DNA from: Pedobacter puniceum
Lineage (GTDB): Bacteria; Bacteroidota; Bacteroidia; Sphingobacteriales; Sphingobacteriaceae
NCBI RefSeq assembly: GCF_009674685.1
Contig: NZ_WKJI01000001.1
Coordinates: forward strand, 1,426,001-1,490,000
DNA length: 64,000 bases
Reading direction: 5' to 3'
Both the position numbers and the translations under genes were made by a program. This document shows, piece by piece, positions 27,906-39,822 of the stretch; position 1 is the stretch's first letter, and the number at the start of each line of letters is the position of its first letter. The notes beneath the pieces are model-generated. The model was not told the DNA's origin. It made no database searches and worked only from the letters and a program-made list of their open reading frames with translations.

Positions 27906-29186
27906 TTATTTTAAATCTACTTGGATAATCTTCACCATTTGAGCCGGCTTATGCTCGGTTTTTTCACCATCGCCCTGCCCGGTTTGCTGCACAAATAGCT
28001 GAAGTTTATTTTTTCTTTGCCATAAGGAGGTATCATAAGAAGGTTCCCATTGTTCCTGACTTTCGGCTGAGACATCTTTCACTTGCCATATTCCTTTTTC
28101 TATGTCTTTGGTGGTGGCTACAGAAATTTTGCTACCTCTTTCTTCATCTCTAAAAACCAAAGCTATTTGCTTTTTATTCACTACAATCTGAGGTCTGGAA
28201 ATAGGAATTCTTTTAGTACCTACACCGCTTAAAGTAAAAGGTATTTTCCTTTCTGCTACCTGCTTTATCAGCCATTTTTCACCATTGTAATAGATAATTT
28301 GGTATTGCGGAATATTAGAATTTACCGAACGCCAATAGCTGGCGATGTAAGGCATACCGCTTGGACTGGTTGTCATAGATGTGGAGTTTATCAACTCACT
28401 TTTTTGCGGTATCAACACAATGGGTGCGGTGTTTTCTATGTTCATAGGGGTAGGATATGCTTTACCTGTTTCAGAAATCCAGGTTTTACCCTCGTCTAAA
28501 GATTTCGCATAACTCATATCATGATTGGTAGCTACATCACTTTGCTCTCGCCATACCCAACTGATGTGGAATACCCCACTTTTATCAATACATGCTTGCC
28601 AATAGGCATTTCTTTTTCCTTGTCCATCAATTAAATTATCATGAACACGTTCCCATTTTTTTGTTTTGGTATAGTATCGGTTTAAAACCAAATTACCTTT
28701 CCCAGAAGCGCCCTCACGGTAAAGAAAAAGTAAATCGCCATTTTTTAAAGCATAAAACTCGGGGTAAGTAGCTTTTTGCTCATTACGGCCAATCATAACC
28801 ATTTCTGCTCCAAGTTCTAAAGCGCCTGGCGCTATGCTTCTAGCATATCTTAATTTACTAGCGTGTTGATCCCAAGAGACATGTAAGTAACCATCCCCAT
28901 CTATCATGATACTGATACTGTTATGTGCATCTTTTATGTTTCCACGATATTGGCTTTGCCTAACTTCCCATTTGTTGGTATGAAGTTTACGTTTAGCTAA
29001 AACCAGATAACCAGCATCATTATAATAAGAAGTGTATTGCCAATTTTTATGACTGATAACCGAGTTCTTTCTGAATACAACGGTATTTACGCTATTACCT
29101 GCCCAGCCTAAACCAACATCAGAAACCTGAGCCGTTGCTAGTTTGCAGCAAACGGTAAATAAAATGATAAGCTTTTTTAGCTTCAT
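27906..29186 (-). CDS. BNR_4-family beta-propeller protein, possible polysaccharide lyase
   Basis: The protein has 426 residues with a signal peptide (MKLKKLIILF...LATAQ). The rest matches BNR_4-type seven-bladed propellers (GWAGNSVNTVVFRKN, HNSISIMIDGDGYLHVSWDQH, TYPEFYALKNGDLLFLYREG, SLDEGKTW). Ulvan lyases PL24/PL25 and the rhamnose-glucuronate lyase PL27 adopt this fold. His88 and His108 are 20 residues apart, and Tyr141 and Arg157 are 16 apart. As I recall, the PL25 enzyme PLSV_3936 uses His123/His143 and Tyr188/Arg204 with the same two spacings. That makes a lyase acting at a rhamnose-uronate linkage plausible but unproven. It is the first gene of its operon, 115 bp from an M1 site. Confidence 0.8.
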   Translation of the reverse strand: MKLKKLIILFTVCCKLATAQVSDVGLGWAGNSVNTVVFRKNSVISHKNWQYTSYYNDAGYLVLAKRKLHTNKWEVRQSQYRGNIKDAHNSISIMIDGDGYLHVSWDQHASKLRYARSIAPGALELGAEMVMIGRNEQKATYPEFYALKNGDLLFLYREGASGKGNLVLNRYYTKTKKWERVHDNLIDGQGKRNAYWQACIDKSGVFHISWVWREQSDVATNHDMSYAKSLDEGKTWISETGKAYPTPMNIENTAPIVLIPQKSELINSTSMTTSPSGMPYIASYWRSVNSNIPQYQIIYYNGEKWLIKQVAERKIPFTLSGVGTKRIPISRPQIVVNKKQIALVFRDEERGSKISVATTKDIEKGIWQVKDVSAESQEQWEPSYDTSLWQRKNKLQLFVQQTGQGDGEKTEHKPAQMVKIIQVDLK

Positions 29187-29300
29187 ATAATTTAAAAGAT
29201 TACCATCAAATTATTAGAATGCTAATATTTTAGGTAAGTAAGTTTTAATGAGATGAACCTATTAATTGGATGTTCTAATATGAATAAAATTAGTTAAAAA

Positions 29301-29320
29301 AGCATCCTGCCTTGTCCTGC
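29301..29320 (-). promoter_or_regulatory. M1 direct-repeat operator candidate for the BNR_4-GH35-GH97 operon
   Basis: The minus strand reads GCAGGACAAGGCAGGATGCT: perfect CAGGA half-sites 10 bp apart, followed on the minus strand by a run of T. This is the cleanest copy of the motif. It begins 10 bp beyond the stop codon of the GH1/RmlD gene but is not palindromic, so I do not read it as that gene's terminator. Confidence 0.62.
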
Positions 29321-29329
29321 TTATTAAAA

Positions 29330-31483
29330 TTACAAAACCAGATCAAACAACTTAACCTCTTCAAAATAACGTTTTAAGGCATCGTTTAAACTAGGTAATA
29401 AAGAACCATTTTTACTTGCAAGAACACTATAAAGAGGTCTTTTAGCTTTTAAGTTTATCTCTTCAATAGGTTTGGCTATAATTAAAGACTCATCTAAACC
29501 TTGGTGTTTAGCTACTAGAAGTGCAAATTCTACGAAGCTGAGCGCTCCTGTATTGGCAAGATGCCAAATTCCGCTTTCGTTATCTATCAATAAATCTAAA
29601 CTGATGTTAACTAAATTTGGTACATAAGTTGGCGAAATCACAACATCATTTGGCGCAATAAAAGGCAAACCCACTTTTAAACAATTGATAACTTGATGAA
29701 TATAGTTGTACTCATCCCAAGGGCCAAAAAATGTGCTGCTTCTTATAATTAATCCATTTGGGTGATGTTTGAGCACCTTTTCTTCTCCCCTAAATTTACT
29801 TTTGCCGTAAATGTTTAAAGGGTTTGGCTCATCATCTTCTGTGTAGGGATAATTTTTAGCACCATCAAAAACCAAATCTGAAGAAAATGTTAACAGCTTT
29901 ACGCGATGCTTCTCGCAGAGGATAGCTAAATTTCTACATCCGATAGTATTAGTGTTATAGCATTCTTCTTGCTGTTCCTCAGCATCATCAACCCTTACAA
30001 AACCTGTGGTATTGATGATGGCCCAAGGCTGTTCTTTTAAGATGATTTGCTCTATTTGTAATGGGTTAAGAATATCTACATCAGCCCTACTTAAAAGCTT
30101 AAAATGTAAATCTCTTTTGGTACAAATTTTAGCGAAGGCATTGCCTAAAGTGCCGCTTTTACCCAATACCAAAATAGGTTTGCAATCAAATTTACTGGCT
30201 AATTCTTTTGGTAGTTCTCCATACAATACTCGGTAGTGTTTTTCCCACCAACCACCACCACAAAGAACAGGGTGAGTAAAATCTTCTTTTTTAGCTAAGG
30301 CTTTAACCATAGCCACCAAAGCTGTTTTTCTTAATATTCCAGCTCTTATATCAAACACGCCTGATTCGTAATTTCCATTTGGCTGTGTTAAAAGTTTATC
30401 CCAACCAAATGCACCTAATAGTGCCCAAATGGTTATCGCTTTTATATCAATACCTTCATTTTCTAATTGTTGAGCTTCTTGATGAACGTAATTTAACCAA
30501 CGCATTTGCTCTTCTCGGGTACAATGTAAATGTACTTCGGTTAGGGCTAAAGGAATTTCATATCTGCGCCAAGCCTCTTTTAACAATTTATAAGGACCTA
30601 AAATTTTCACTTTTGATGATCTTACGGCTTCAATATCCGCATACTGATGTTTGCCATTACCGCCATGTGTATGTTTAGGATAAGTATCCAAATCTTCATC
30701 TATAAAACGTTCTGAAGTGATGTAATAATTAAAACCTAAAACATCAGGCACACAGGTATGCTTTTCAAAAAAAGCGATTTCTGCTGGTGTAATACCATTT
30801 TCTATCAAATAAACATATAACGGATGTTGTTGATTAACCCTGCCGCATAATAAATCTAAACCCAGCCACCTACGCTTATTTTCTAATTCGGCCTGGTAGC
30901 CTAATAAAGCCGTAGCATGTGTTTTACCCAAATCTTCTGTATGTACCAACTTGGCCTTAGGATTTACCGTTCTTATAGCTTGCATAGCCAAAACAGTTGC
31001 TTTACATTCTTGAAATAAGATTTTTAGAAAACTATAATCATTACTTTCATGCGGCCACCATAAACCGTATAAACCACAAAATCTAGCAGTGGTTAAAGGC
31101 TCATTTATGGGGGTATAATGGTTTATCCAAGGGAAAGCCGTTGCAACTTCTTTGGCATATTTGGCTAAGCCTGCAGAGAAAGAATCATTTAAAATATCAA
31201 CATATAAAGGGCCACTTCCGTGATGTACTAAGCCTGCAATAACTTCAATATTTTGCTCTTTTAGATATAAAAGTTTTTCTCGGGTTTTATGCCAATTTAT
31301 AACTGTATTTAGCTGGGGCTGATGTTTTTCCCATAAAACCGGGTAACGAATGCTGGTCAAACCCAATGCTGCAATATCTTCTAAATCAGTTGTTCTATCA
31401 TCATGCCCAGCATCATCTAGCTGACTAAAATATTGGTATCCAACCCTATTAATGGTACATTCTAAACCTCCCCAAATCTCCAT
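29330..31483 (-). CDS. GH1-like hydrolase fused to RmlD-type dTDP-sugar reductase
   Basis: The protein has 717 residues and no signal peptide, so it is cytoplasmic. Residues 1 to about 400 are a compact GH1-type barrel: TPINEP with the acid/base candidate Glu128, DVLGFNYYITS, and ALTEVHLH with the nucleophile candidate Glu316. Both glutamates are present, although the usual TENG motif is altered. Residues about 436-717 form an extended short-chain dehydrogenase of the dTDP-4-dehydrorhamnose reductase type: GKSGTLG (441-447), SSDLVFDG (534-541), and the catalytic Tyr559/Lys563 of YGKSK. The gene begins 1 bp after glf and 15 bp of spacing joins glf to a glycosyltransferase. The context points to synthesis or editing of a cell-surface glycan or nucleotide sugar, not to foraging. 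The reaction is unknown. Confidence 0.85.
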   Translation of the reverse strand: MEIWGGLECTINRVGYQYFSQLDDAGHDDRTTDLEDIAALGLTSIRYPVLWEKHQPQLNTVINWHKTREKLLYLKEQNIEVIAGLVHHGSGPLYVDILNDSFSAGLAKYAKEVATAFPWINHYTPINEPLTTARFCGLYGLWWPHESNDYSFLKILFQECKATVLAMQAIRTVNPKAKLVHTEDLGKTHATALLGYQAELENKRRWLGLDLLCGRVNQQHPLYVYLIENGITPAEIAFFEKHTCVPDVLGFNYYITSERFIDEDLDTYPKHTHGGNGKHQYADIEAVRSSKVKILGPYKLLKEAWRRYEIPLALTEVHLHCTREEQMRWLNYVHQEAQQLENEGIDIKAITIWALLGAFGWDKLLTQPNGNYESGVFDIRAGILRKTALVAMVKALAKKEDFTHPVLCGGGWWEKHYRVLYGELPKELASKFDCKPILVLGKSGTLGNAFAKICTKRDLHFKLLSRADVDILNPLQIEQIILKEQPWAIINTTGFVRVDDAEEQQEECYNTNTIGCRNLAILCEKHRVKLLTFSSDLVFDGAKNYPYTEDDEPNPLNIYGKSKFRGEEKVLKHHPNGLIIRSSTFFGPWDEYNYIHQVINCLKVGLPFIAPNDVVISPTYVPNLVNISLDLLIDNESGIWHLANTGALSFVEFALLVAKHQGLDESLIIAKPIEEINLKAKRPLYSVLASKNGSLLPSLNDALKRYFEEVKLFDLVL

Positions 31484-31484
31484 A

Positions 31485-32606
31485 TTATTTAATTAAAGTT
31501 TCGGTAACTTCAGCTTCCTTTTTTAGGATATTTTTAAACGTAGCCAAAGCTTGCGCCACTACCTGATCCATATTATAATACTTATAAGTAGCTAAACGCC
31601 CCACGAAATAAGTATTCTCTAATTGGTTAGCTAAAGCTTGATATTTGGCATATAAAGCCGCATTATCTTCTTTAGGAATAGGATAATAAGGGTCTCCTTC
31701 TGCCTGAGGAAACTCGTACACGACTGATGTTTTATGGTGCTTTTGCCCACTGATGTACTTAAACTCAGAAATACGTGTAAAAGCATAATCGTTTGGATAG
31801 TTTACAGTTCCGGTTTCTTGAAACTTTTCTTGGCCATGCGTTTCAAACTTAAATGCTAAAGAGCGGTAAGGTAGTTTACCATAACAATAATCAAAATACT
31901 CATCTACAGGGCCTGTAAAAATGAGTTTCTTATAGTTAATCTCACCTATTATCTCCTTATAATCTGTATTTAACATGATTTTTATGTTCGGATGATTTAA
32001 CATTTGCTCGAACATTTTGGTATAACCATGTAGCGGCATAGCCTGATAGGTATCGGTAAAATACCTATCATCTTTATTGGTTCTGGTAGGTACTCTGGCT
32101 GTTACCGAGGCGTTAAGTTCTGATGGGTCCATTGCCCATTGTTTACGGGTATAACCTCTAAAAAATTTCTCGTAAAGCTCTCTCCCTACTTTGGCAACCA
32201 CCACATCTTCAGAGGTTTTTACTTGTTTTACATCCTCGGCCCTTGAGGCAAAAAAATCTTCTAACTCATCAGAATTAAGGTTTAAACCATACATGTTATT
32301 GATGGTGGTAAGATTTATTGGAATAGGAAGCATTTGCCCATCTACACTAGCCAAAACGCGATGTTGGTAATTACGCCACTCGGTAAATTCAGAAAGGTAA
32401 TCAAACACATCTTTACTATTGGTATGAAAAATATGAGGCCCATATTTATGAACCAATATACCTGCTTCATCATAATGGTCGTAAGCATTGCCACCAATAT
32501 GATTTCTTTTATCAATCAACAAAACTTTTTTATCAGCTACACGAGCCAAACGCTCGGCCAGTACGCTTCCTGCGAAACCAGCGCCAACAATTAAATAATC
32601 AAACAT
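31485..32606 (-). CDS. glf: UDP-galactopyranose mutase
   Basis: The protein has 373 residues, the usual length. The N-terminus carries the FAD dinucleotide-binding motif GAGFAGSVLAERLA, followed by LIDKRNHIGGNAYDHYDEAGILVHKYGPHIFHT, diagnostic of Glf. PIPINLTTINNMYGL, KFFRGYTRKQWAMDPSEL and the C-terminal FVGRLATYKYYNMDQVVAQAL are also typical. The enzyme interconverts UDP-galactopyranose and UDP-galactofuranose in the cytoplasm to supply galactofuranose for glycan synthesis. It is the middle gene of a tight three-gene unit: 15 bp from the glycosyltransferase upstream and 1 bp from the GH1/RmlD gene downstream. It implies that this cassette makes a galactofuranose-containing or similarly modified product. 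Confidence 0.96.
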   Translation of the reverse strand: MFDYLIVGAGFAGSVLAERLARVADKKVLLIDKRNHIGGNAYDHYDEAGILVHKYGPHIFHTNSKDVFDYLSEFTEWRNYQHRVLASVDGQMLPIPINLTTINNMYGLNLNSDELEDFFASRAEDVKQVKTSEDVVVAKVGRELYEKFFRGYTRKQWAMDPSELNASVTARVPTRTNKDDRYFTDTYQAMPLHGYTKMFEQMLNHPNIKIMLNTDYKEIIGEINYKKLIFTGPVDEYFDYCYGKLPYRSLAFKFETHGQEKFQETGTVNYPNDYAFTRISEFKYISGQKHHKTSVVYEFPQAEGDPYYPIPKEDNAALYAKYQALANQLENTYFVGRLATYKYYNMDQVVAQALATFKNILKKEAEVTETLIK

Positions 32607-32621
32607 AGGTTTTCTTTAAAA

Positions 32622-33767
32622 TTAGCTGGCTATAGATATATTTTGTTTACTGTTAAGGGTTTTTAACATCAATTCTTGCATATTTTGGCAAGTATTATCC
32701 CAAGAGTTATCTGCTAAAAAAGCGTCTACTTTTGCTAACCATTCTGATTTATCTTTTTGACTGAGCTCTATTGAAATAGCCTCAATAAATTCGGCATTGT
32801 AATTAGCTATATTTACAAAGTTTTTAACACCATAAGGTTTAACCACATCTCTAATAGCCGATGATACTACTGGTACGCCTGCTGCTAAATACTCTGGAGT
32901 TTTGGTTGGGCTGATAAATCTGGTAGACTCGTTCAACAAAAACGGAATTAAAGCTACATCCCATCCAGAAAGATAAGCTGGTAGTTCGGCATAGCTTTTT
33001 TGCCCCAAATAATGAATGTTTTTGTTTTTTGGTAAAGTTGCAGGGTCTATTTTAACTACTGGGCCTATCAAAACAATTTGCCAATCTGGTTTTTCTGTTG
33101 CGATGGCTTCAATAAGCTCAATATCAAAACGTTCATCTATTACGCCATAAAAACCAATTTTCGGACCTAGGATTTGTTGTTGGTCGGCCGGAATTGTTTT
33201 AATAGTTCTGGCTTTTTGAAAATGCTCTTTTTCTATACTGCTTGGGAAAGGATGAATATTAGCGTGTAAATGCTTTTTAGCCTCGTACAAAGAATGGCCT
33301 CCGGTAAAAATAATATCAGCTCTTTGAATAAGCCTTTTCTCTAAAATTTTTAACTCTTTTGGCGCAAACTTAAAAGCCGATAATTCATCCATACAATCGT
33401 ATATGGTGAGCTTAGGTCTAAATTTATCTGTAAAAGCCAATGCCATTGGGGTGTAGTACCAAAAAGCAAAATCTTCTAAATCTTTTTGCGATAAGAAATT
33501 ACTCAAAAAGCTAGTTAATAAATTATTTATATCATCTTCTTCTAAACCGGCAGGCAAGTGTGGTGTGCAAACCCATAAACCAGGCAGTTTATTTTCAACA
33601 GAGAAATAAGGTTCTTCGGCATCAAAAAATGGTTCTTCTATAAAATAGGTTTTCATTTGTTTAGCAAACCTGCTTAATAAATGTTGTGGTCTTTGAAATA
33701 CAAAATCCCATCTTAAGTGAGAGAAGCATAACAAGTTTTTCGGTAGTGATTTAGTGATGTTTTTCAT
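32622..33767 (-). CDS. GT4-like glycosyltransferase partnered with Glf
   Basis: The protein has 381 residues with no signal peptide. The opening segment LLCFSHLRWDFVFQRPQHLLSRFAK is characteristic of a TuaH-like glycosyltransferase group often seen beside glf. The C-terminal GT-B half contains GPKIGFYGVIDERFDIELI, WQIVLIGPV and TPEYLAAGVPVVSS, the nucleotide-sugar-binding region of GT4 enzymes with its conserved Glu. It probably transfers a sugar, possibly galactofuranose made by Glf, to a lipid- or glycan-linked acceptor at the inner membrane. It is the first gene of the cassette, with a 383-bp upstream region holding two inverted repeats. Confidence 0.85.
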   Translation of the reverse strand: MKNITKSLPKNLLCFSHLRWDFVFQRPQHLLSRFAKQMKTYFIEEPFFDAEEPYFSVENKLPGLWVCTPHLPAGLEEDDINNLLTSFLSNFLSQKDLEDFAFWYYTPMALAFTDKFRPKLTIYDCMDELSAFKFAPKELKILEKRLIQRADIIFTGGHSLYEAKKHLHANIHPFPSSIEKEHFQKARTIKTIPADQQQILGPKIGFYGVIDERFDIELIEAIATEKPDWQIVLIGPVVKIDPATLPKNKNIHYLGQKSYAELPAYLSGWDVALIPFLLNESTRFISPTKTPEYLAAGVPVVSSAIRDVVKPYGVKNFVNIANYNAEFIEAISIELSQKDKSEWLAKVDAFLADNSWDNTCQNMQELMLKTLNSKQNISIAS

Positions 33768-33836
33768 AATAATTAGCTGTCATATGTTGGTAGATAATGG
33801 TAGGCTAAGAATAAGAATTATAGAATTTTATCTAAG

Positions 33837-33871
33837 CCATACAGCTGATAAAGTTAAGATCAGCTGTATGG
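33837..33871. repeat. Perfect 13-bp inverted repeat upstream of the glycosyltransferase
   Basis: Arms CCATACAGCTGAT (33837-33849) and its exact complement (33859-33871) flank a 9-nt loop. It starts 70 bp upstream of the glycosyltransferase start codon. It lacks a U-tract on either side, so it may be a leader hairpin or an operator rather than a terminator. Confidence 0.5.
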
Positions 33872-34027
33872 TAAAATTCAAAGTTTATGCCGCTAACAAA
33901 AGAGAAATTTTCATTAAGCACTTAATATTAAACTAAAAGAAATGTAATTAATCTACACCAAAACCACTGCTTTACCTTATTTTTAAGACTAATTTTATGA
34001 GGCTTTTGGATTCATGACCTAAAAATT

Positions 34028-34045
34028 TAACGTATAAATACGTTA
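34028..34045. promoter_or_regulatory. 18-bp palindrome, operator candidate
   Basis: TAACGTAT-AA-ATACGTTA is a perfect palindrome with a 2-bp centre, the format expected of a dimeric helix-turn-helix repressor site. It lies 261 bp upstream of the glycosyltransferase and 106 bp past the end of the GH2 gene at 34151. The regulator is unknown. Confidence 0.4.
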
Positions 34046-34150
34046 TTAAATTGAGCATTTAATTCTGATTTAAGTATTTATCCTGGTTAAGTTTACCAAT
34101 AAAATAGTATAATTTTAGCTACAATTAAAGGCCAACGCTATACAGTTAGG

Positions 34151-35995
34151 CTATTTATAATGATTAGAATTTAATAAGCCAGCAGTAACATCTAGTGCCC
34201 CTGTTTTAAAATCAATGATACCGTTTTTCTCATCTTCTATATTAGTTGCTTGGGTGTAAACATCACCAGCAATTTCTCTTTTTCTTAATTCTGTCTTAAA
34301 TTGTTTGATGTATGCTTCCCTTTGTTCGGCATCTTGCGGCCCTCCGTAATCTGCAAAGCCAAAACCACCCCATTCGCTTACTAATAAGGGCACCTGTTTG
34401 CGGTAGAAAAACGGATCGCCTACTACCAAAGGTAAAACTGCCACATGGTCTATCTGCCCTGAGATTAAACTGTCTAGCATTTCTTTCCACCTTTTAAGTT
34501 CTGCAGTATATAAATGAGCTGTTAATAAATCGCTTTTTAAACGGCCCTGATGAGAGATATGCTGCCAGCCATCATTATCAACAACTAAAAATTGTGGATG
34601 CTCTATCTGCATAAAATGATACCTATCCATAATGTAATTACGTGTTTCTATATTACTAGCAATGTCTTGTGCTCCCCAATCCTCGTTATATAAACTCCAT
34701 ATCACCACCGATGGATGCGTTTCTATCAAAGCCAACATCCGATGTAGTTCTTCTTTATGATTCATACGACTTTTATGGCTAGAGCTATGCGGGCTAGGTA
34801 CTTCTACCCAAAGTAAAAGACCAATTTTATCTGCAATTTTATAGATACGAGGGTCTACACCTGCAATATGAATTCTCACCAAATTGCAACCCAGTTCTTT
34901 CATAGCGTACATATGTCTTTTTATTTCTTCATATGTAGCAGTACCGGGTTGATAAAGTATGCCGTCTAAATAAATTCTTTGGTTATTGAGGTAAACATAA
35001 GCTCCACGAGCTTCTATTTTCCTTAATCCGAAATGTGTTTCTATCTCTGCGGTATAACCATTAGCATCAACCAATTGCGCAACCAATCTATACAAATGTG
35101 GGGTTTCTGGCGACCAGTAAATAGCATCAGGAATTCCCATAACTAATCTTTGCTGTTTTTCTCCTGCGCTTAAACGTAAAGGAAACTCATCTACAGCAAT
35201 TGGCTCATCACTTTCTTGCTTTTTATGATAAACTTTTAGTTTAATGGTATATAAACCTGGGTCGTGTATACGAGTAGTAAAATTAAACCTTACCAAATTA
35301 TCTTCAACAACACTTACTACCCCTACTCTAGAGCGTAACCTGTTTCTTTCTACCGTTTCTAGCCATATACTTCTAACCGCCCCAGTATAAGTTTGGTACC
35401 AAATGCCGCCTCTTTTGTAAACATGAGATTCTTGTTTCCCTCGGGGGATATCTGCATCCATACTAACCGCAATTCTTACCGTGATACGGTTATTAGCTTG
35501 TAAAAGCATCTCATCTAATTCATAAGAAAAAGAGGTGTATTCTCCATAATGAATATCCTCACCATCAATGGTTTTTAAATGATGACCATTTAACCAAACT
35601 TGAGTTTCATAACCACAAGCACCAAAAGTTAATTGTAATTGCGATGATGGATGAACATCTTCTTTAGGTATTACAGGTTTAGGAAAACTTCTTTCGTACC
35701 AAACTACATATTTATCATACCAGCCAACATCAGACTGTAAACCATTTTTAATATGCTCTTCTACGCTTCCGGGCCATTGGGCAGTATATTTATAATCATG
35801 ATTCACATACCAACTTTCTTGTAAACCTACATTCTCTGGATCTACAGAAAATTTCCACTCGCCGTCTAATAAAATAAAATGATTAGGGCGTATAACTGCT
35901 CTCGGCAAAGGACTGATAAAGTTTTCATCTAAGGAGTTTTCATCTTTACTTTTTGATAGCCCATAATTAGGATGTATAGGTGTTATTTTAATCAT
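34151..35995 (-). CDS. GH2 beta-galactosidase/beta-glucuronidase-like hydrolase without signal peptide
   Basis: The ATG at 35995 gives 614 residues. A GTG at 36100 would add a hydrophobic leader but has no supporting start signal, so I rejected it. The GH2 order is visible: a sugar-binding jelly roll (FILLDGEWKFSVDP; WYERSFPKP; ETQVWLNGHHL), an immunoglobulin-like domain, and a TIM barrel with HPSVVIWSLYNEDWG (acid/base Glu) and VPLLVSEWGGFG (nucleophile Glu). With no export signal it should be cytoplasmic, unlike the secreted GH2 at 37402-39822. It shares a 154-bp divergent promoter region with uxuA. Its proximity to the glycosyltransferase cassette may be meaningful, but the 383-bp gap argues against one tight operon. 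Specificity among GH2 activities is undetermined. Confidence 0.88.
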   Translation of the reverse strand: MIKITPIHPNYGLSKSKDENSLDENFISPLPRAVIRPNHFILLDGEWKFSVDPENVGLQESWYVNHDYKYTAQWPGSVEEHIKNGLQSDVGWYDKYVVWYERSFPKPVIPKEDVHPSSQLQLTFGACGYETQVWLNGHHLKTIDGEDIHYGEYTSFSYELDEMLLQANNRITVRIAVSMDADIPRGKQESHVYKRGGIWYQTYTGAVRSIWLETVERNRLRSRVGVVSVVEDNLVRFNFTTRIHDPGLYTIKLKVYHKKQESDEPIAVDEFPLRLSAGEKQQRLVMGIPDAIYWSPETPHLYRLVAQLVDANGYTAEIETHFGLRKIEARGAYVYLNNQRIYLDGILYQPGTATYEEIKRHMYAMKELGCNLVRIHIAGVDPRIYKIADKIGLLLWVEVPSPHSSSHKSRMNHKEELHRMLALIETHPSVVIWSLYNEDWGAQDIASNIETRNYIMDRYHFMQIEHPQFLVVDNDGWQHISHQGRLKSDLLTAHLYTAELKRWKEMLDSLISGQIDHVAVLPLVVGDPFFYRKQVPLLVSEWGGFGFADYGGPQDAEQREAYIKQFKTELRKREIAGDVYTQATNIEDEKNGIIDFKTGALDVTAGLLNSNHYK

Positions 35996-36149
35996 GATGT
36001 TTATGTTTTTCAAATGAAGATTATACCTTAAAATGCTCAATACGTATGCCATACCTAAAAACAGCACAAAAACTATTATGCCACCGATTGCATAAATCAC
36101 CTCACATTTTCTATTTTTGAGACTCTTGAATATCTTTTAAACATCAATT

Positions 36150-37397
36150 ATGGCATTAGAAAAGACCTGGCGCTGGTTTGGAGCTAAAGATTCTATACAA
36201 CTATCAGATTTAAAGCAGTTTGGTGTAGAAGGTATTGTAACCGCCTTACACCATATTAAAGCTGGCGCAGTTTGGCCTATAGATGAAATTTTAAAAGTTA
36301 AGCAGGAAATAGAAAGCCATGGTATGCATTGGAGCGTAGTAGAAAGCCTTCCTGTTTCAGAAGAAATTAAAATTTGTAGCCCCAAAAGAGCAGAACTGAT
36401 AGCAAACTATAAAACCTCTTTAAGAAATTTAGCGGCATGTGGTATAGATACAGTTTGCTATAATTTTATGCCGGTATTAGATTGGGCTCGTACCAGCTTG
36501 CATTATACACATGAAAGCGGAGCAGAATCTATGCTATACAACCATGAAACTTTTGCAGCTTTTGATATTTTTATCCTTGCAAGACCAAATGCCGCTCAAG
36601 ATTACACTACTGAAGTTGTTGAGAAAGCAAAAACTATTTTTGATGGGATGAGTGAGGATGAACAAAACACCCTTGCCTTTAACATTATTGTGGTAACCCA
36701 AGGCTTTATAAATGGTACTGTTGATAATGCTGCTACTTTTAAACAAGACTTCTTATATTATTTAAGTAGATATGAACATATTGATAAAGCTGTTTTAAGA
36801 GACCATTTATCATTGTTTTTGGAAGATGTTTTACCAGTAGCAGAAGAATGTGGTATTAACTTATGTATACACCCAGACGATCCTCCTTTCCCCTTATTAG
36901 GTTTACCCAGAATTGCCAGTACAGAAGAAGATTTTGAATGGTTATTTAATCAACATCCATCTTTAAACAATGGCTTAACTTATTGCAGTGGTTCTTTATC
37001 TGCAAGAGAAGATAATGATTTGCTTGCAATTGCAAAACGTTTTGCAGAACGCATACATTTTGTACATCTCAGAAATATCAAAAAATTGGATGAAAGAAGC
37101 TTTTATGAATCGGCACATTTAGATGGTGTGGTTGATATGTATAGCGTTTTAAAAGTTTTATTAGAAGAACAAAGAAGAAGAATTGCAGAAGGCAGAAAGG
37201 ATACCCGTATGCCTTTTAGACCAGACCACGGCTTAAAAATATTAGATGATTTTAATAAAAAAAGTAATCCAGGTTATCCATTAATTGGGCGTATGAAAGG
37301 CTTGTGTGAAATTACAGGATTAGAAATGGGAATTGAAAAGGGTTTAGAAGTATGGAGTTATAAGTTGAAAGTTAAAAGTACTTGTTCAACTAACTAA
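36150..37397 (+). CDS. uxuA: Mannonate dehydratase
   Basis: The protein has 415 residues and is cytoplasmic. Family motifs include WRWFGAKDSIQLSDLKQFGVEGIVTALHH, CYNFMPVLDWART, the metal-site segment IHPDDPPFPLLGLPRI, YCSGSLSAREDNDL, FVHLRNIK and PFRPDHG. It dehydrates D-mannonate to 2-keto-3-deoxy-D-gluconate in the hexuronate pathway, so it would process glucuronate released by the lyase and GH88 system. It lies alone on the plus strand, divergent from the cytoplasmic GH2 and convergent with the GH2 at 37402, with only 4 bp between stops. The last residues (SYKLKVKSTCSTN) look unlike the family C-terminus and run into a short tandem repeat, so the tail may be a recent extension. Confidence 0.95.
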   Translation: MALEKTWRWFGAKDSIQLSDLKQFGVEGIVTALHHIKAGAVWPIDEILKVKQEIESHGMHWSVVESLPVSEEIKICSPKRAELIANYKTSLRNLAACGIDTVCYNFMPVLDWARTSLHYTHESGAESMLYNHETFAAFDIFILARPNAAQDYTTEVVEKAKTIFDGMSEDEQNTLAFNIIVVTQGFINGTVDNAATFKQDFLYYLSRYEHIDKAVLRDHLSLFLEDVLPVAEECGINLCIHPDDPPFPLLGLPRIASTEEDFEWLFNQHPSLNNGLTYCSGSLSAREDNDLLAIAKRFAERIHFVHLRNIKKLDERSFYESAHLDGVVDMYSVLKVLLEEQRRRIAEGRKDTRMPFRPDHGLKILDDFNKKSNPGYPLIGRMKGLCEITGLEMGIEKGLEVWSYKLKVKSTCSTN

Positions 37398-37403
37398 CTA
37401 ACT
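37388..37403. repeat. (AACT)4 microrepeat at the uxuA/GH2 junction
   Basis: Four perfect AACT units span the uxuA stop codon and reach the stop region of the convergent GH2 gene. Slippage here would change the C-terminal tail of either protein without touching catalytic parts. Confidence 0.6.
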
Positions 37404-39822
37404 ACTCACTACTAAGCGCTAAAACACCATCTTTTAAACCTTTACCACTAACTAAAAGCTCTATTTTACCAGCTTTTTTTACTGATTGTACTAACACCAC
37501 CAATTTACCACTAAACAGTTTCATAGTGGATAAGTTAAACTGCTCTAATGAAGTAGCATCTCCATTGCAAGCGGCCTTAAAAACACCCTCTCCTTTTACT
37601 TTAAAATTTAGTTGATTGCTAGCTGTAGGACAAGGGTTTCCATCCTTATCAACTACAGAAACGGTTACAAAAGCTATATCATCGCCATCGGCAGTGATAC
37701 TTTTACGATCAGGTTCTAGTATAAGACTATGAGGTTTACCCGCTGTTACCATTGTTTTTTCTGCTGCTACCTTTCCATCATCATCATAAGCTACAACTTT
37801 TACGGTACCCGGTTCGTACTTCACATTCATCCACATTAAGCGGTATTGATGTTGCAAACTACTGTTATTTTTACGCTGTACGCCCATACTTTTGCCATTA
37901 ATAAAAAGCTCGGCACTTTTAAAATTGGTATACACAAAAATTGGTATGGTTTGTCCTTCTCTACCTTCCCAATTCCAATGTGGCAGAATGTGTAAAGTAG
38001 TATCGTGGGTATTCCACTTGCTGCGGTATAAATAATAGCGGTCTTTAGGTAAACCCGCTAAATCACAAATACCAAAATAAGAACTTCTTGATGGCCACTT
38101 ATCATCATAAGGTGTTGGCTCTCCTAAATAATCAAAACCAGTCCATACAAACTGCCCAATTACCCATGGTTTGGTATCCTCTAAAATAAAATCATCTTCT
38201 GGTAAATTAGACCAACGGCAATATTCTAAATCGTAAGAAGAGCATTGGTAATCATCATGTTGCTTATCACTAGCTTTAACAACCGGAAATTTATAAACCC
38301 CTCTTGAACTTACGGTAGAACCAGTCTCAGAACCTAAAATTAAACGTTGTGGAAAAGCTTTATAAGCATCTTCATACAAATGTGTACGGTAATTTAAGCC
38401 CGGAATATCCATAACAGCACCAAAACCACTAGCCATAGTGGCTTTCACCTGATCCATACCTACCGTAACCGGACGAGTAGGGTCTTCTCTATGAAAAATA
38501 TCTTGCAACCATTTGGCAAGTTTAGCTCCATCAGAACCAAATTGGTCTGGTACCTCGTTTCCAGAACTCCACATCACAATACTAGGGTGATTTCTGGTAG
38601 CCCTTACCAAATTTAAAATATCCTTTTCAGCATCAGTTTTAAAAAAACGATGGTAACCATTTGCTACTTTTGCTTTAGCCCATTCATCAAAACTTTCTGC
38701 TAAAAACATAAAGCCCATCTCATCACAAAGCTCTAGCTGCTCTCTGGAAGGCATATTATGTGAACTTCTAATGGCATCGCAACCCATATCTTTCAATATT
38801 CTTAACTGCCTGCGCATGGCAGCAATATTTACAGCAGCACCTAAAGGGCCTAAATCGTGGTGTAAACAAACTCCTTTAAACTTACGTACTTGGCCATTTA
38901 AGCTAAAGCCTTTATTAGGGTCAAAAGCAATACTTCTAACACCAAATTTAGTATGCAACTCATCTTTTAAAACACCATTAGCATATAGTTTACAAACAGC
39001 TGTGTATAAATAAGGTTGCTCTGGGCTCCATAATTGAGGCTGTTTTAGTAATAAATTTTGGTCAAACTCTTTTGCAAAAGTTTCATTGGTAATTTTTGTT
39101 ATTATGGTATCGCCTTTAGCGTTAAGGATAATGGTTTTTAACGTTAGGTTTTCACCATTAACTTTGGTTTTGATATTCACTTTTGCCTCGTTATCAGTAA
39201 TCATTGGCGTGGTGATAAAAGTTCCCCATTGCTCTATGTTAGCGTCCTCTTTGATGATGATTTTTACATTTCGGTACAAGCCTGCTCCAGGGTACCATCT
39301 CGATGATTTTTCTCGGTTGGTTAAATGTACTGCTAAAAGATTAGCACCTTGTTGTACCTGCTTACTGATATCGAAATAAAAATAATTATAGCCATAGTTC
39401 CACTCGCCCACTTTTTCACCGTTGATATAAACTTTTGGCTCGCTCATGGCCCCTTCAAAAAGGATTAAAACTTTTTGATTTTTGTTTAGAGTAGGTAAAT
39501 TAAAGTTATTTCTGTACCAAGCCTCGCCAACATGAGGTAAAGCACCTGTTCTACCTGTTTTCTCACTTGCTGTTTTCTCACCATTTTGCACAATAGCCAC
39601 CACTTGCTTATCTACCTCTTTATCAAAAGGGTTGTTTATGGCCCAATCATGGGGGATATTGACTTTCTCCCATTTTGCATCATTAAAACTTTTCTCATAA
39701 GCTTGAGCATGAACTCCTCTAGAAAATTTCCATCCCGTTTTTAAAACAAATTCCTGTCTAGATTGGGCAAAAGAAAAACTGGCGAAGCAACAAAATAAGT
39801 ATAGCAGTAACTTATATTTCAT
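37402..39822 (-). CDS. Secreted GH2 beta-galactosidase with DUF4982-type and Ig-like C-terminal domains
   Basis: The protein has 806 residues with a signal peptide (MKYKLLLYLF...SFAQ). The jelly roll contains WEKVNIPHDWAI and EAWYRNNF; the barrel has GVCLHHDLGPLGAAVN, HPSIVMWSSGNEVPD (acid/base Glu) and LILGSETGSTVSSRG (nucleophile Glu). The segment after the barrel (WEGREGQTIPIFVYTNFKSAELFINGKSMG) matches the DUF4982 type of GH2 extension. The last part (ITADGDDIAFVTVSVVDKDGNPCP) is an Ig-like domain common at the end of Bacteroidota beta-galactosidases. It probably cleaves beta-galactosides in the periplasm. An M1-like site lies 57 bp upstream, linking it to the left-hand system although it sits beside the right-hand operon. 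Confidence 0.93.
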   Translation of the reverse strand: MKYKLLLYLFCCFASFSFAQSRQEFVLKTGWKFSRGVHAQAYEKSFNDAKWEKVNIPHDWAINNPFDKEVDKQVVAIVQNGEKTASEKTGRTGALPHVGEAWYRNNFNLPTLNKNQKVLILFEGAMSEPKVYINGEKVGEWNYGYNYFYFDISKQVQQGANLLAVHLTNREKSSRWYPGAGLYRNVKIIIKEDANIEQWGTFITTPMITDNEAKVNIKTKVNGENLTLKTIILNAKGDTIITKITNETFAKEFDQNLLLKQPQLWSPEQPYLYTAVCKLYANGVLKDELHTKFGVRSIAFDPNKGFSLNGQVRKFKGVCLHHDLGPLGAAVNIAAMRRQLRILKDMGCDAIRSSHNMPSREQLELCDEMGFMFLAESFDEWAKAKVANGYHRFFKTDAEKDILNLVRATRNHPSIVMWSSGNEVPDQFGSDGAKLAKWLQDIFHREDPTRPVTVGMDQVKATMASGFGAVMDIPGLNYRTHLYEDAYKAFPQRLILGSETGSTVSSRGVYKFPVVKASDKQHDDYQCSSYDLEYCRWSNLPEDDFILEDTKPWVIGQFVWTGFDYLGEPTPYDDKWPSRSSYFGICDLAGLPKDRYYLYRSKWNTHDTTLHILPHWNWEGREGQTIPIFVYTNFKSAELFINGKSMGVQRKNNSSLQHQYRLMWMNVKYEPGTVKVVAYDDDGKVAAEKTMVTAGKPHSLILEPDRKSITADGDDIAFVTVSVVDKDGNPCPTASNQLNFKVKGEGVFKAACNGDATSLEQFNLSTMKLFSGKLVVLVQSVKKAGKIELLVSGKGLKDGVLALSSE

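Follow-up and report, generated by a model that had tools for sequence, protein, structure and literature searches.

A gene cassette joining UDP-galactopyranose mutase to a GT4-like glycosyltransferase and a GH1-like protein in Pedobacter puniceum and scattered other bacteria

The 64,000-nucleotide stretch of Pedobacter puniceum DNA analysed here (the window; NCBI RefSeq contig NZ_WKJI01000001.1, positions 1,426,001 to 1,490,000) contains three closely packed genes on the minus strand. They code for a GT4-like glycosyltransferase (GT; 381 aa, 32622–33767), a UDP-galactopyranose mutase (Glf; 373 aa, 31485–32606) and a 717-aa protein in which a GH1-like barrel is fused to an RmlD-type domain (29330–31483). 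The spacing is 15 bp and then 1 bp; coordinates, strand and spacing are exactly those of a first-pass annotation of this DNA. Comparison with other genomes shows that the module is real and patchily distributed among scattered bacteria. Its core, as read from sequence, is Glf, the GT4 enzyme and the GH1-like protein, because the GT-Glf-GH1-like order persists where the fusion is lacking and because the RmlD half decays. The cassette is most likely a galactofuranose (Galf) pathway in which the GH1-like protein is the unusual partner. Functional linkage of the GT, Glf and GH1-like genes is far surer than the complete chain of reactions proposed below.

The fusion is a conserved protein. One scan of a genome collection found it at 18 distinct loci, with best segments 40–82% identical, in Pedobacter, Mucilaginibacter, Flavisolibacter, Paracnuella, Segetibacter, Hymenobacter, Runella and Rhizobacter as well as in contigs of metagenome-assembled genomes (MAGs) filed as Rhodoferax, Williamsia and others. 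The GT gene lies within ∼3 kb at 14 of these loci and glf at eight, several loci being cut by contig ends. At E 1e-30, 30 plasmid records also matched (in 19 the match spans 80% or more of the query, in four it is confined to the RmlD half), adding Deinococcus, Sphingomonadaceae, Caballeronia, Azospirillum, Microvirga, Gloeothece and others to the hosts, and the GH1 half (E 1e-50) is present in 5 of 398 Pseudomonadota genomes, the centre genome included. The fusions on the contigs filed as Williamsia (L020) and Rhodoferax (L011) differ from Bacteroidota copies no more than these differ among themselves, and the former pairs with Segetibacter in the tree; these contigs may be misbinned.

Co-occurrence of the three genes is strong. 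A GT (≥340 bits) was found in all 21 fusion-family genomes searched (20 distinct; the genome of L016 was left out), and Glf in 23 of the 24 searched genomes with the GH1-A class of protein, to which the fusion belongs (G000 excluded). Among 395 Bacteroidota, the window genome included, the GH1-A protein occurs in five (four full fusions, and one without RmlD in G249), the GT (E 1e-60) in 21 and Glf (TIGR00031, E 1e-40) in 64. All five GH1-A genomes have the GT (Fisher p 2.6e-7, genomes being taken as independent; 4/4 and p 4.9e-6 without the window genome), and Glf is present in 19 of 21 GT-positive genomes versus 45 of 374 GT-negative ones (p 1.3e-14; 18/20 and p 7.0e-14 for the GT-positive genomes without the window genome). 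The effect size, gene order and gene fusions weigh more than these p-values. Comparison of other genomes had been put forward in the first-pass annotation, and the three genes do occur together there; the counts rule out a chance neighbourhood. GT and GH1 similarities are also correlated (r 0.72 over 21 loci, with L017, L025 and L134 omitted as near copies), as shared ancestry alone could also produce.

Gene order is similarly retained. Within ∼9 kb on each side of the GT gene in the 21 GT-positive genomes, Glf is found in 14, a GH1-like gene in 14 and both in 11, and 10 of those 11 have the order GT-Glf-GH1 on one strand. These counts use tblastn, which recovered genes that a length-greedy gene caller overlooked in high-GC loci (L128, L129, L132). 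Eight fusion-free genomes (L110, L111, L114, L116, L117, L119, L122, L123) carry GT, then Glf, then a separate gene of class GH1-C, coding for 372–399 aa (457 in L123, where the start is uncertain) with 19–23% identity to the barrel of the fusion when the eight GH1-C rows are aligned; in three further GT-positive genomes (L113, L115, L121) GT-Glf has no GH1-like match within 9 kb. A third class, GH1-B (∼405 aa), adjoins either the GT or the fusion in L011, L012, L015, L018 and L108. Both GH1-B and GH1-C lack the RmlD half (372–406 aa, apart from the 457 in L123), and one of these proteins is fused to a GT. GH1-B is divergent from the adjoining GT at L012:6276-7493, L015:6250-7467 and L108:7598-8818, and related genes occur elsewhere in GT-positive genomes.

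The UDP-galactopyranose mutase of the cassette differs from other such enzymes in being linked to this GT type, and often also to a GH1-like gene, and in some species GT and Glf are a single protein: Gloeothece (L027), Sinorhizobium (L031) and Segetibacter (L135, L136). The Sinorhizobium locus also has a GT4-GH1 fusion adjoining a protein of 1080 aa whose domains read as GT4, Gfo/Idh-type dehydrogenase and zinc alcohol dehydrogenase. GT, Glf and the fusion lie inside 8 kb in D. aetherius, and ∼18 kb of an Azospirillum thermophilum plasmid (L145:13710-31822) holds a GT, two fusions, a GH2 gene, an ABC exporter, GH1-C, glf and an aldose 1-epimerase. On the Sinorhizobium accessory megaplasmid the genes for GT-Glf, GT4 + Gfo/Idh + zinc alcohol dehydrogenase and GT4-GH1 are consecutive (L031:10911-18804); similar DNA is present in 35 plasmid records, 28 of which have most of the stretch. 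Two Segetibacter MAGs carry two copies of the GH1-RmlD fusion each (L135 and L014 in G400, L136 and L026 in G411), one copy adjoining the GT-Glf gene, with no GT found beside the other within the stretch examined.

The three GH1-like classes form a distinct branch. Positions invariant across 25 aligned members of A, B and C include E8, H87, N127, E128, Y254, E316 and W361. A maximum-likelihood analysis of 47 rows recovers A, C and B (the last together with B-like sequences) with 100/100 support each, and separates all three from nine ordinary GH1s, again with 100/100. The tree program cautions that long branches come together here, and most of the B-like rows are genes that lie elsewhere than the cassette. 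Five of 52 rows (canon_L146, canon_L147, canon_L152, Blike_L164 and Blike_L167) were omitted for a probably wrong longest frame or a very long branch; another tree has 50 rows. None of four GH1-C proteins scanned reaches a Pfam model at E 0.001, and one weakly reaches the BGL model (32.1 bits). Two GH1-C proteins, at L111:11190-12326 and L107:7829-8980, match no Pfam family at E 0.001 yet keep the GH1 catalytic residues.

In the window fusion the barrel comprises residues 1–418 (30230–31483). PF00232 (GH1) matches residues 31–363 weakly (30.0 bits, cut-off 22.6), and the protein scores far under the BGL equivalog TIGR03356 (30.3 versus 478.5 bits), so the barrel reads as GH1-like but outside that equivalog. 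An AlphaFold2 model of the fusion (pLDDT 89.3, pTM 0.88) places residues 1–403 on GH1 beta-glucosidases with Z 36.1 over about 372 residues; for the Thermotoga maritima enzyme the root-mean-square deviation is 2.9 and the identity 16%. VIA-align re-examined Foldseek's own matches here, which leaves room for other folds. The candidate acid/base E128 (31100–31102) and nucleophile E316 (30536–30538) align with the NE and TEN motifs of a GH1 chain in a profile of GH1-like proteins, and this pair is retained in 33 of 33 fusion-family relatives. Residue 8 is an invariant Glu in the GH1-like relatives and position 360 is Gly, Asp or, in L028, Glu. Ordinary GH1s carry Gln and Glu at the matching glycone-site positions; because both positions are changed, the barrel may well not bind ordinary glucopyranose. 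The first barrel strand begins at residue 2 in the model and no signal peptide is evident by eye, from which we infer a cytoplasmic location for the cassette proteins.

A low-confidence linker (residues 419–429, 30197–30229; pLDDT <50) divides the barrel from the RmlD-type domain (residues 430–712, 29348–30196). PF04321 matches residues 437–692 strongly (191.3 bits, cut-off 27), and residues 434–712 match RmlD structures with Z 38.2. The first-pass annotation had read the motifs of the fusion correctly: the translation has NE at 127–128, TE at 315–316, the Rossmann GxxGxxG motif (GKSGTLG) at 440–446 and the YxxxK pair Y559 (29807–29809) and K563 (29795–29797). Its proposal that the RmlD half is the key to the system is not supported. 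The Tyr/Lys pair is intact in 23 of 33 relatives, lost in seven (L019, L020, L022, L024, L025, L030, L129), and the domain itself is absent or vestigial in three (L021, L126, L131); among the 33 loci, L009/L017 and L024/L025 are close pairs. In Hymenobacter negativus (L023) each half has a frame of its own, and these two frames overlap. The window protein shares the fold and motifs of dTDP-4-dehydrorhamnose reductase but is joined to a GH1 barrel, and the motif pair or domain is gone in 10 of 33 relatives whereas the GH1 pair is kept in all, which argues that the RmlD half is a dispensable extra of the module. The reductase may still work in the window fusion itself. MAT2B chains, from an RmlD relative that is a regulatory subunit and not a reductase, are among the Foldseek matches of the fusion. 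A core function centred on the reductase is rejected in view of the motif decay across the family.

The window Glf scores well over the curated full-length TIGR00031 cut-off (419.1 versus 303.75 bits), which bears out its first-pass identification, and its closest solved chain is 3hdq (634 bits). A review lists 3hdq as DrUGM, the D. radiodurans enzyme, with UDP-galactopyranose (UDP-Galp; PMC3624792). Glf of a D. radiodurans plasmid is identical to 3hdq over 358 residues and 74% identical to the window Glf, and its gene overlaps one for the same GT type, 50% identical to that of the window (L142:10842-13107). Galactofuranose is favoured as the best-guess sugar because of this likeness. A zinc alcohol dehydrogenase gene lies ∼7 kb upstream of GT-Glf on the same plasmid.

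The GT was likewise labelled correctly as GT4-like. It matches PF13692 (35.4 bits), and its AlphaFold2 model (pLDDT 90.9) finds MshA, glycogen synthase, sucrose-phosphate synthase and BshA in Foldseek with probability 1.00; it thus shares the GT-B fold of the GT4 enzymes MshA, BshA and sucrose-phosphate synthase. The model for TuaH, of teichuronic acid synthesis, is matched at E 1.5e-25, but at 89.9 bits against a cut-off of 550. No PDB sequence match to the window GT was found at E 0.01, profile search included.

From the observed gene linkage, folds, conserved catalytic residues and Glf family membership we propose a cytoplasmic module for transfer and trimming of Galf. Glf would convert UDP-Galp to UDP-Galf, from which the GT4-like enzyme would pass the furanosyl unit to an intracellular acceptor. 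The GH1-like protein, as a retaining glycosidase in the same compartment, would trim, recycle or re-transfer the GT product, and the neighbouring GH2 protein would be a second glycosidase for that product. The RmlD half would be an accessory domain at the C terminus, with perhaps a structural role or one in sensing nucleotide sugars or NAD(P). Stress genes adjoin the module in some genomes, and it may have a role under stress. We put this whole chain forward tentatively, with confidence a little short of even.

Several observations weigh against it. Its substrate, acceptor and activity are predictions, and the nearest folds to the GT are enzymes that use pyranosyl donors. The D. radiodurans GT-Glf pair has no GH1-like match within the 25 kb examined, four of the 21 GT-positive genomes (G363, G206, G371, G249) have neither Glf nor a GH1-like gene within ∼9 kb, and two of these, G206 and G371, have no Glf match at all among the best four candidates scored per genome. 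One GH1-A genome, the MAG G397, is without Glf, and the Runella Glf is on a different contig. The first look scored the best two candidates per genome for GH1-A and the best four for GT and Glf, so that absences are not firm, and genomes are not independent as the p-values assume. The RmlD domain, intact in 23 of the 33 relatives, may matter where it is retained. Two other cassette-linked GH2 genes score higher for beta-glucuronidase than for galactofuranosidase.

Glf normally serves surface glycans, and the cassette could make an ordinary Galf-containing lipopolysaccharide, capsule or glycolipid, with Glf and the GT adding Galf, an ABC exporter or housekeeping route exporting the product, and the GH1-like protein acting in quality control. 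An ABC exporter (ABC_membrane + ABC_tran) indeed follows GT-glf-GH1-C in Skermanella (L144) and the GH1-like gene in Azospirillum (L145), with relatives in L129 (56%) and, as weaker matches, in L130, L128 and L010, and the review cited above has Glf serving surface glycans in pathogens (PMC3624792). Yet no flippase, polymerase, Wzx/Wzy or initiating transferase family recurs among 20 hand-picked neighbours from 13 loci, a weak test in which one GT9, one MFS and one ABC protein appeared among mostly unrelated proteins. We regard this explanation as unlikely. That the GH1-like and GH2 proteins are instead catabolic cytoplasmic glycosidases of the surrounding polysaccharide utilisation locus, with Glf and the GT as incidental neighbours, seems quite unlikely. 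The window unit does border such a locus, with GH35, an alpha-rhamnosidase-like BNR protein and uxuA on its flanks, and glycosidases lie near some other loci (GH28 in L110, GH97 in L107). However, GT, Glf and GH1-like genes are also together in Deinococcus, Alpha- and Betaproteobacteria and a cyanobacterium, where the annotated neighbours mostly form no utilisation locus. The flank also differs in P. glucosidilyticus, whose copies retain GH2, GT, Glf, fusion and uxuA: the downstream gene in L009 is arabinofuranosidase-like and differs from that of the window, which suggests that the cassette is its own unit. The anabolic-looking module that the first-pass annotation saw inside a catabolic locus is therefore genuine, and recurs apart from that locus.

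The same annotation suggested that the fusion couples trimming of a glycan by its GH1 domain to supply of a 6-deoxy sugar donor of the dTDP-rhamnose type by its RmlD domain. In favour, the RmlD motifs of the window protein are complete, the domain fits RmlD closely and most relatives keep Tyr and Lys. The losses of the pair or domain described above, and the GH1-B and GH1-C proteins that do without the RmlD half, speak against coupling, as do a score below the RmlD equivalog TIGR01214 (198.4 versus 224.05 bits) and the presence in the window genome of a separate strong RmlD-family gene (C3), RmlC (C2) and RmlA (C5). Coupling is not supported and we consider it very unlikely. Per-genome RmlD counts are uninformative, since the family is present in all 14 control genomes.

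A more specific version of the proposed Galf module is that the GH1-like protein is a cytoplasmic transglycosidase that rearranges the Galf-bearing GT product to yield a protective galactofuranosyl compound, a glycolipid or a solute, as yet undescribed, GT-Glf-GH1 being a portable stress-tolerance module spread on plasmids and islands in at least four phyla (Bacteroidota, Pseudomonadota, Deinococcota and Cyanobacteriota). We think this specific version unlikely. As to stress genes near the cassette, 8 of 41 genomes have a DUF892 ferritin-like gene ≤10 kb from the GT or GH1-A gene, versus 0.39 expected if evenly spread, and L116, L019 and L024 have a long catalase gene next to the cassette. The only DUF892 gene of the window genome is ∼258 kb distant, and the stress-gene linkage does not hold there.

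In open-licence PMC literature (titles, abstract openings and top-ranked matches) we found no description of the fusion or the cassette, and the first-pass view of it as undescribed stands within that search. Here Glf is associated, in distant bacteria, with one GT subfamily and with a GH1-like branch that gets weak scores, or none, from ordinary family models. The D. radiodurans mutase of solved structure, encoded beside the same GT type, gains a partner and a testable role. Were the product known, it could define a new class of Galf compound and place GH1 on the biosynthetic side within the bacterial cytoplasm.

The unit had been described as three genes; these are linked, but a fourth upstream, coding for a GH2 glycosidase of 614 aa (34151–35995, minus strand), probably belongs as well. 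Its open reading frame is listed as 34151–36100 from a GTG, and the true start is probably the Met at residue 36 (35995), since the frames of two P. glucosidilyticus homologues, 93% identical, start there; the 35 residues ahead of it resemble a spurious membrane segment. From that Met there is no evident signal peptide by eye. GH2 relatives 25–27% identical lie near the cassette in L022 (Rhizobacter), L027 (Gloeothece) and L145 (Azospirillum), and the Gloeothece gene is accompanied by galK and galT. The best PDB match of the window GH2 is a beta-D-galactofuranosidase (96 bits), narrowly above a beta-glucuronidase (84 bits). A Streptomyces galactofuranosidase has been reported as a GH2 enzyme (PMC11084152).

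The 383-bp gap between the GH2 and GT genes (33768–34150) is perhaps the promoter region of the cassette: it is of similar length in two relatives, and the 18 bases before the start codon are identical in all three. Rfam gave no match within 29000–37500, this gap included. Scans of 29000–36200 were uninformative for promoters (24 promoter-like sites versus 29.2 expected) and for terminators (8 versus 4.7). A general search for a shared operator motif returned 23 14-base words (≤2 mismatches) in at least 3 of 13 intergenic regions, with ten shuffles giving 3–30; at this general level the contrast in operator-like motifs that the first-pass annotation drew between the cassette and its neighbours is not confirmed. 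On the other side of the cassette, the BNR_4 protein beside GH35 (27906–29186, minus strand) scores 632.9 bits with the model for BT3686-type alpha-L-rhamnosidases, the cut-off being 700.

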